Assembly (NCBI RefSeq): GCF_039655875.1
Contig: NZ_JBBYXK010000002.1
Location: forward strand, 1-64,000
Origin: Emcibacter sp. SYSU 3D8
Lineage (GTDB): Bacteria > Pseudomonadota > Alphaproteobacteria > SMXS01
Reading direction: 5' to 3'
Length of the DNA stretch: 64,000 nucleotides
The notes under the pieces are model-generated. The model had not been told where the DNA came from and did no database searches. It was given only the letters and a program-made list of their open reading frames with translations. This document shows, piece after piece, positions 56,249-59,741 of the stretch. The first letter of the stretch is position 1; each line of letters begins with the position of its first letter. The position numbers were made by a program, and so were the translations under genes.

Positions 56249-57433
56249 CTACCCCCGCGGCTTCGGCCCCAGGTCCCACAGCGCGCGGCCGTAATTCTCG
56301 GCGGCCTCTTCCCATACCAGCGACACGTGGGTGACACCCACATTGATGTCGCGCTGGAAACGCTGGATCGGGTTGGCGAGATAGACCGAGGTCGCGCCGG
56401 CCATCTGCGTCAGCTTCAACGCGGTCTGGCCGATCAGGCGCGACACATAGGCCGCGTCGCGGTGCGAGACATAGGCGTCGAGCGCCGGGTTCGGCGCGGC
56501 GCCGGCCTCGGCCCAGCTGTTCAACTCGGCCATGCGGTGGCGCATGATCAGGGTGGCGGCGTGGATGTCGGTCAGGCACTCGGTCAGCTTCATCTGGTTG
56601 GCGACCCGCTCGACCTGCACCTCGCCGGTGAACAGCGCCTTCTTGCCGACCAGGGTCTTCTGTACGGCGGCGGCCATGCCCTCGGCCATGCCGATCAGCG
56701 CCGCGGGAATGCCCCAGATCGCCGGCCAGCCGAACGGCAGGCGCGCCATGGGAATGCCCAGCGCCTCGCCGCCGGGCGTGGTGCCCATGGCGATATCCAT
56801 GATCGACACGCGGCGATGCGCCGGTACGAACACATCCTCGAGCACCAGGTCCTTCGAGCCGGTGCCGGACAGGCCGGAGACGAACCAGTCGTCGACCAGG
56901 GTCACGTCCTTGCGCGGCACCAGCATCCAGTCCAGGCAGGTGGGGCTGGGCTTCATGATGATGAACCAGTCGGCGAAGTCGCAGCCGGAGGAGAACTTCC
57001 AGCGGCCGGTCAGGCGGGCGCCGCCTTCGACCTCTTCCATCTTGCTGTTCATGGCGAATGACGCGGTGGAGCACAGCTTGTCGTCGCTGCCGTCCCAGTA
57101 TTCCTCCTGCGCCTCGATGGGGAACAGGCTGACCTGCCAGGTGTGGATGACGAACAGGTTGGTCACCCAGCCGCTCGAGCCGCAGGCGGTGGCGATGGTG
57201 CGGATCACCTCGGTGGCGGTGTCCGGACCCAGTTCGTAGCCGCCGAAGCGCTTGGCCTGCAGAATCTTGGGGAAGCCGGCTTCGCGGAACTCCTGCACCG
57301 TCACGTCCGGCAGCCGGCGGTTCTTTTCGGCCTCGGCCGAACGCTCGCGCAGCGCCGGCAGCAATGCCTCGGCGCGGGCGATCATGTCTTCCTTGGTCGG
57401 CGTCCGCGCCTGTGCCGTCGTTTCGATGTTCAT
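56249..57433 (-). CDS. Flavin-dependent monooxygenase, HpaB/HsaA-like acyl-CoA dehydrogenase fold
   Basis: 394 residues. The sequence has the acyl-CoA dehydrogenase fold but the two-component monooxygenase pattern: EAGFPKILQAKRFGGYELGP, TACGSSGWVTNLFVIHTW, ARLTGRWKFSSGCDFADWF, SGLSGTGSKDLVLEDVFVP and RFQRDINVGVTHVSLVWEEA. Enzymes of this group (HsaA, HpaB-related) hydroxylate aromatic rings or amines using reduced flavin from a separate reductase. It lacks the normal acyl-CoA base region. The reductase is not in the window. It is divergent from the ATP-grasp/Anbu genes, and the 258-bp gap could hold shared control. Confidence 0.8.
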   Translation of the reverse strand: MNIETTAQARTPTKEDMIARAEALLPALRERSAEAEKNRRLPDVTVQEFREAGFPKILQAKRFGGYELGPDTATEVIRTIATACGSSGWVTNLFVIHTWQVSLFPIEAQEEYWDGSDDKLCSTASFAMNSKMEEVEGGARLTGRWKFSSGCDFADWFIIMKPSPTCLDWMLVPRKDVTLVDDWFVSGLSGTGSKDLVLEDVFVPAHRRVSIMDIAMGTTPGGEALGIPMARLPFGWPAIWGIPAALIGMAEGMAAAVQKTLVGKKALFTGEVQVERVANQMKLTECLTDIHAATLIMRHRMAELNSWAEAGAAPNPALDAYVSHRDAAYVSRLIGQTALKLTQMAGATSVYLANPIQRFQRDINVGVTHVSLVWEEAAENYGRALWDLGPKPRG

Positions 57434-57629
57434 GGCCGCATCCTCTCCTGCGTCAGGACGGCCCGGTCGCGCCGCCTGCGGTGAAACTTCCCTGTAGTCC
57501 CTCTAGCCCGAGCGTCGCCATAAATCAATCATCGCCGCCGAAATTAATCATTCGCGACTTCGAATTCCCTTTGCAACGGCGCGGCCGAGCAGGAATGATC
57601 GCGGCGGAACCAATCCGGGGGAGGAATAT

Positions 57630-57695
57630 ATGTCACGTCTCGTACGGCGCGGTGCGCTTTCAGAATCGGCCTGCCGCGCGGGATTCGCCCCATGA
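57630..57695 (+). CDS. 21-residue ORF coupled to the ATP-grasp gene
   Basis: ATG at 57630 lies 6 bases after GGGGGAGG, the best ribosome-binding site in this region. The frame encodes 21 residues beginning MSRLVRRG and ending CRAGFAP, and its TGA overlaps the ATP-grasp ATG as ATGA. The peptide has four Arg and one Cys. The ATP-grasp gene itself has only a weak site of its own, so translation probably starts here and couples on. It may be a regulatory leader or a true small peptide; only the DNA context supports it. Confidence 0.5.
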   Translation: MSRLVRRGALSESACRAGFAP

Positions 57696-59009: not shown

Positions 59010-59741
59010 ATGACCTATTGCCTTGGCATATTGCTGCAGGACGGCCTCGTCATGGCGTCCGATTCCCGGTCGAATGCGGGCGTCGACGACATCACCAGCG
59101 TCTGCAAGATGGAGGTGATCGACGTGCCGGGCGAGCGGGTCATCGTGATCCTGTCGGCCGGCAATCTGGCGACCACCCAGTCGGTCATCACCGAGTTGCG
59201 CGAGGCGCTGGGCAAGGCCGGCGCCGACGATCTGCACGCGGCCGCGACCCTGTATGACGCGGCCCGGGCCGTCGGCGGGATGCTGCGCGTGGTGGTCGCC
59301 CGCGACGGCGCCCATGTCAGTCCCTACGGCGACGCCACGGGGAGCTTCATCGTGGGCGGACAGATCGGCGGCGAAGCCCCGCGGCTGTTCCGGGTCTATC
59401 CGGCGGGCAACTTCGTCGAGGCGTCGGCGCGCGCCAGCTTCCTGCAGATCGGCGAGGCCAAATATGGCAAGCCGATCCTCGACCGGGCGCTGTCCTACGG
59501 AAGCCCGCTGGACGAAGCGGCCAAGCTGGCGCTGCTGTCGTTCGACGCCACCATGCGCAGCGACCTGTCCGTCGACATGCCGATCGATATCCTGCGCTAT
59601 GAGACCGGCAGCTTATCGGCCGCCAACCGGACCGTGCTGGAGAAAAGCGATCCCTACTGGCGCGCCCTCAGCAACGCCTATGGCGAGGGACTGGCGACGC
59701 TGGTCGAGCGCCTGCCGCGGCCACCGGACTGGCGCAGCTAG
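59010..59741 (+). CDS. Anbu, proteasome-type Ntn hydrolase
   Basis: 243 residues. After removal of Met1, Thr1 would be the nucleophile (TYCLGILLQDGLVMASD), with Asp17 in the ASD motif and Lys32 in VCKMEVID, the T1/D17/K33-like triad of proteasome beta subunits and HslV. VIVILSAGNLATTQSVI and SFIVGGQIGGEAPRLFRVYP match the Anbu family (COG3484). Anbu forms large open or helical rings, but its substrate is not established. Known neighbours elsewhere are a circularly permuted ATP-grasp, alpha-E and transglutaminase-like proteins; here a normal ATP-grasp gene precedes it. Confidence 0.92.
   Translation: MTYCLGILLQDGLVMASDSRSNAGVDDITSVCKMEVIDVPGERVIVILSAGNLATTQSVITELREALGKAGADDLHAAATLYDAARAVGGMLRVVVARDGAHVSPYGDATGSFIVGGQIGGEAPRLFRVYPAGNFVEASARASFLQIGEAKYGKPILDRALSYGSPLDEAAKLALLSFDATMRSDLSVDMPIDILRYETGSLSAANRTVLEKSDPYWRALSNAYGEGLATLVERLPRPPDWRS

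Follow-up and report, generated by a model that had tools for sequence, protein, structure and literature searches.

A 21-codon open reading frame (ORF) that lies directly upstream of an ATP-grasp ligase gene in Emcibacter sp. SYSU 3D8 is likely a translational leader of the reinitiation type, and comparison with related genomes indicates that it is kept as an architecture and not as a peptide. Both frames belong to the window, the 64,000-nucleotide stretch of DNA that was analyzed, and the features around them are collected in Table 1. The ATG of the short ORF is located at 57630, and its TGA (57693-57695) overlaps the ATG of the ATP-grasp gene at 57692 by 4 nt, in such a way that the two frames are joined by an ATGA as the earlier note on this DNA had described. 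That note had also called the ribosome-binding site very strong, which is borne out by a duplex of -11.0 kcal/mol between GGGGGAGG and the anti-Shine-Dalgarno sequence, versus -4.1 kcal/mol for the Shine-Dalgarno (SD) of the ATP-grasp gene itself. The ORF, the SD, the 21 codons and the ATGA were all found as claimed, but the spacing between SD and ATG is of 5 nt by direct reading, instead of 6.

Table 1. Features of the leader and ATP-grasp region (positions of the window).
Feature	Positions	Strand	Basis or remarks
Flavin-monooxygenase-like gene, divergent	56249-57433	-	
Putative promoter TTGCAA-17-AATGAT	57571-57599	+	Conserved block in 6/6 genus species; sigma-70 consensus match weak, 8/12
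Strong Shine-Dalgarno GGGGGAGG	57617-57624	+	Anti-SD duplex -11.0 kcal/mol
Leader ORF, 21 codons + TGA, product MSRLVRRGALSESACRAGFAP	57630-57695	+	Read from sequence
ATGA stop/start overlap, putative termination-reinitiation junction	57692-57695	+	Read from sequence; same in L029, L030, L032 and L006
ATP-grasp-fold ligase gene, 430 aa	57692-58984	+	AlphaFold2 model and PDB fold matches
Anbu-type proteasome homologue, downstream of the ATP-grasp gene	59010-59741		PDB matches 5loy, 5lox, 5nyf and others

The start of the ATP-grasp gene was also checked, having in mind the suggestion that it could lie further upstream. This was ruled out, since no in-frame ATG, GTG or TTG was found 5' of 57692 in the ATP-grasp frame, and orthologues from other genera likewise have their first residue at the MK-x-G-x-FFP position. 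The AlphaFold2 model of the 430-aa product (pLDDT 89.6) gave its best PDB fold matches with ATP-grasp peptide ligases such as 8ynd, and lower with 3wvr (E 5e-17 to 1e-13), with purine-synthesis ATP-grasps close behind and identities of around 11-16%. This confident model supports an ATP-grasp fold closest to that of the peptide ligases. The enzyme had no Pfam match at E 0.001, and weak non-CP ATP-grasp matches appeared at E 0.17-0.29. Genomes of this order contain several members of the enzyme family each, and a paralogue in the window genome (L002, G000:C1:222412-223686), 42% identical, carries an SD shortly 5' of its probable TTG start.

The conservation of the arrangement was studied in a sample of 10 genomes of the order, nine of which contain the enzyme family. 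Close orthologues of the enzyme (77-100% identity) were detected in six of the seven members of the genus, the seventh being a genome 78% complete, and a class-wide search contributed only more distant relatives, around 39-49% identical. The GGGGAGG SD is kept in all six genus species, with duplexes from -10.7 to -11.4 kcal/mol, and at five of the six loci the SD, the ATG, the open frame and the ATGA are all kept. In these five leader-bearing species the leaders are 21, 22, 22, 22 and 25 codons long, and the spacers measure 59, 62, 62, 62 and 71 nt, all in phase 2. The own SD of the ATP-grasp gene is weak also in L030 and L032 (-3.0 kcal/mol), and a fair SD-like stretch precedes the gene in L006 (-8.6 kcal/mol) and L029 (-9.4 kcal/mol), so de novo initiation at the ATP-grasp ATG is possible in these two species.

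The encoded peptides are far less constant: MSRLVRRGALSESACRAGFAP in the window, MSRLARRGAPSDSARRRAGGAP in L029, MSRLARRGAPSDSACRRARCAP in L030, MSRLARRAAPSDSACRRARCAP in L032 and MPRSNARAPRPENAESAARHGGRAR in L006. A MSRL-RR-A-S-SA pattern is kept in the four close species, whereas the 25-residue peptide of L006 could not be aligned with the other four, and the cysteine is absent in L029 and L006. No residue pattern common to the window-type peptides and L006 or L031 was found, and when the leader peptides were searched by tblastn against the loci of the relatives, the matches at the orthologous place, among those listed, were limited to the four close species. At the nucleotide level, the window and L006 share 67% identity in the spacer, 80% in the promoter/UTR and 90% in the coding sequence, and among the five leader-bearing species the spacer drifts faster than either neighbor; in the comparison with L031, spacer and promoter/UTR vary to about the same extent (69% vs 71%).

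The sixth genus locus, L031 (the same place as L007), is the most diverged by enzyme sequence (77% identity). It has the same promoter block, an SD of -11.4 kcal/mol and an ATG, but here the spacer is 63 nt long and in phase 0, in such a way that the ATG is in frame with the enzyme and starts a 453-aa ATP-grasp protein (MNGTTATVSGASDKAGGAARRGVQIGSFFP...) that is extended by 22 residues at its N-terminus; a separate peptide is not encoded. The usual Met of the enzyme is replaced by a GTG with a weak SD. Frame-breaking changes in relatives had been named beforehand as evidence against the short ORF, and one was thus found, in a single species, where the frame relation is changed to a fusion. A sequencing error behind this frame is conceivable, since several of the genomes are metagenome assemblies; the frame is nonetheless open for all 453 codons. 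Read from these alignments, L031 represents a natural control, in which the enzyme is started directly from the SD and ATG that open the leader elsewhere in the genus. The enzyme of L031 should be annotated with the 22-residue extension, and that of the window without it. Outside the genus, three of the four outgroup loci (L033, L034 and L036) have GGGGGAG directly before the ATP-grasp ATG, and L035 shows no clear SD there. Neither an in-frame extension nor an out-of-frame leader is present in these outgroups, and no SD-led ORF overlapping the enzyme start by ATGA was found in any of the four. Within this sample, the separation of around 60-70 nt between SD and gene appears specific to the genus.

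How much of this could arise by chance was evaluated in 464 kb of the window genome, in which a home-made gene caller called around 397 genes. The leader was the only ATG-started ORF of 15-40 codons with an SD of around -11 kcal/mol and an ATGA junction, and four looser cases of the same arrangement were found. This rarity, together with the recurrence in five of the six genus species, points to more than chance. Openness of the frame says little by itself, since the spacer is GC-rich (69-82% GC), all three frames are open in the window, and shuffling leaves the frame open in 73% of cases for the window leader and in 73-92% overall. Likewise, the TGA of the junction comes free with a phase-2 spacer, since the ATP-grasp gene begins with ATG AAG. 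The Arg-rich, one-Cys composition, which had been held to be unusual, proved ordinary for such GC-rich DNA, with the Arg content reached or exceeded in 27% of the shuffles and at least one Cys present in 54%, and it was discarded as a signal. The check proposed in the earlier note, conservation with synonymous-biased substitution, gave a divided answer: start, stop overlap and open frame are kept in five of six species, but the bias is unconvincing. Among the four close species the third-position excess is slight (substitutions 3, 4 and 8 by codon position; 8 of the 15 variable columns, P = 0.09), and pairwise dN/dS, over only 21-22 codons, is around 0.3-0.4 against the window but ranges from 0.4 to 1.9 when the other three species are compared with each other. 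These values are not convincing evidence of selection on the peptide, although a slight constraint on it may exist. The conserved SD and ATG in six of six species, with a drifting stretch behind them, appear more telling than these substitution statistics.

These data support the reading of the short ORF as a translational leader, one of the two proposed in the earlier note: it has its own strong SD and start, its stop lies at the downstream start, and the architecture is kept while the peptide drifts, with L031 starting the enzyme from the same SD and ATG. Transcription would start at the conserved block (57571-57599), the strong SD would recruit ribosomes, and these would read through 21 codons of arbitrary sequence as far as the TGA. 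The overlap of this stop with the ATP-grasp ATG could then allow reinitiation on the ATP-grasp gene, which in the window has a weak SD of its own, and the peptide would most likely be a throw-away product. A genus-specific stretch of around 60-70 nt would have come to lie between the SD and the gene.

The other proposed reading makes the peptide of 21 residues a substrate of the ligase; it was considered here as a RiPP/graspetide-like precursor, a PGM1-like substrate or a partner of the enzyme. The ORF lies directly upstream of the enzyme gene, ATP-grasp peptide ligases (8ynd; also 3wvr) come nearest to the enzyme in predicted fold, the MSRL-RR-A-S-SA pattern is kept in four close species, and there is a precedent in the ATP-grasp ligase PGM1, which links a core peptide of ribosomal origin with another moiety (PMC8939145). 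However, the fold likeness, at such low identity, extends to purine-synthesis enzymes, the composition is that of random DNA, and neither the sequence, the Cys nor the length of the peptide is kept. Across the orthologous loci no conserved core residues or leader motif were found as expected of a graspetide/RiPP precursor, and the ORF does not accompany the ligase across the family, with an unrelated peptide in L006 and no separate ORF in L031 or in L033-L036. This reading is therefore not supported, and we consider it very unlikely. A peptide that is made and joined or modified by the adjacent ligase as in PGM1, in a fast-evolving, species-specific system, has only a slim chance of being correct; if it were, the fusion in L031 would have arisen secondarily, by joining the substrate to the enzyme. 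A regulatory role of the peptide, sensing amino acids or a metabolite through attenuation or stalling, is improbable too. A short upstream ORF with a strong SD and several Arg codons would agree with it, but Arg is not above chance and makes up 2 of the 23 codons in L031, and neither a regulatory codon run nor alternative terminator/anti-terminator structures were found at the leader, where no terminator-like hairpin was detected. An RNA element at the leader was rejected as well, with a fold z-score of 0.11 and a positive covariation term in the alignment fold, which gives no support.

The short ORF could also be open merely by chance, with translation of the ATP-grasp gene beginning independently at 57692; in favor of this are the ease with which open frames and the TGA arise in this DNA and the SD-like stretch that precedes the enzyme start in L006 and L029. 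Against it, the strongest SD of the region is kept before the leader ATG in six of six species and does not stand at the enzyme start in the window, L030 or L032; moreover, the enzyme of L031 starts at the leader ATG, and the arrangement has few parallels in the genome. We hold this explanation to be unlikely. A programmed or accidental -1 frameshift fusing leader and enzyme is extremely improbable. The window junction C CCA TGA permits a -1 slip of Pro-tRNA onto CCC, and L031 shows a true fusion, but the frameshift was rejected because the slip site is not conserved, being replaced by GCG CCA TGA in L029, L030 and L032 and by CGA TGA in L006, and the orthologues from other genera begin at the same Met.

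A reinitiation-type leader is an ordinary kind of bacterial feature; what is neat is the evolutionary series, in which the same SD starts the enzyme in one species and an out-of-frame ORF ending on the enzyme start in its relatives, and which is completed by the relatives of other genera, with the SD next to the gene. It illustrates how translational coupling could serve a gene whose start became separated from its ribosome-binding site, and it warns against taking such leader ORFs for peptide substrates. Bicistronic design (BCD) cassettes are synthetic, whereas the window leader is natural, and they normally carry a second SD inside the leader. The order of elements is the same in both, a strong SD, a short leader cistron and then the target gene (PMC5995908). 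The leader also resembles the reinitiation-type leader genes of Korolev et al. 2016 (PMC4833913), short unannotated ORFs just 5' of a structural gene for which a general role in boosting expression, with reinitiation raising translation, was proposed; those counted did not overlap the gene, with a peak at 10-11 bp, whereas the window leader overlaps it by 4 nt. ATGA gene pairs, which couple by termination-reinitiation (Huber et al. 2019, PMC6728339), share with it the 4-nt stop/start overlap and the co-directed frames. Both members of such a pair are real genes, and the tests on them used an intragenic SD preceding the second start; in the window, a non-conserved leader of 21 codons takes the place of the first gene, and the SD of the second is weak.

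Around 20 nt 5' of the leader SD lies the TTGCAA-17-AATGAT block, and the spacing of 17 nt between ATTCCCTTTGCA and AATGATCGCGGCG is constant in the six genus species, although the sequence within this spacing diverges in L031. The block fell under the threshold in a scan for the sigma-70 consensus; by its conservation, it is plausibly the promoter of the ATP-grasp transcript. Further upstream, AAATCAATCATCGCCGCCGAAATTAA at 57522-57547 is mostly kept in the five species with the divergent flavin-monooxygenase-like gene and is missing in L031, where that gene does not adjoin. Judged from this distribution, it is possibly a promoter or operator of the flavin-monooxygenase-like gene.

Downstream, the Anbu gene was considered as part of the leader/ATP-grasp unit, and this was rejected on the grounds of its patchy adjacency. 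It adjoins the ATP-grasp gene in the window and in L030 and is 2.8 kb off in L032, and the flanks retrieved for L029, L031 and L033 to L035 showed no Anbu gene. Most genus genomes have an Anbu copy elsewhere, and the copies in G002, G003 and G004 sit on other contigs than the enzyme gene. Anbu operons consist of CP_ATPgrasp, Alpha-E, transglutaminase and Anbu genes (PMC6376114, PMC5666114). In the window, too, an Anbu gene comes after an ATP-grasp gene, but the enzyme lacks a CP_ATPgrasp_1/2 match and neither Alpha-E nor transglutaminase adjoins, so by profile matching it is not the canonical ATP-grasp of the Anbu operon. A second Anbu of the window genome, 44% identical, lies in a CP_ATPgrasp/Alpha-E/Anbu cluster (G000:C1 around 1.10 Mb, L073). 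The ATP-grasp of that locus matches CP_ATPgrasp at E 1e-167, and the cluster has the arrangement described for Anbu operons (PMC6376114).
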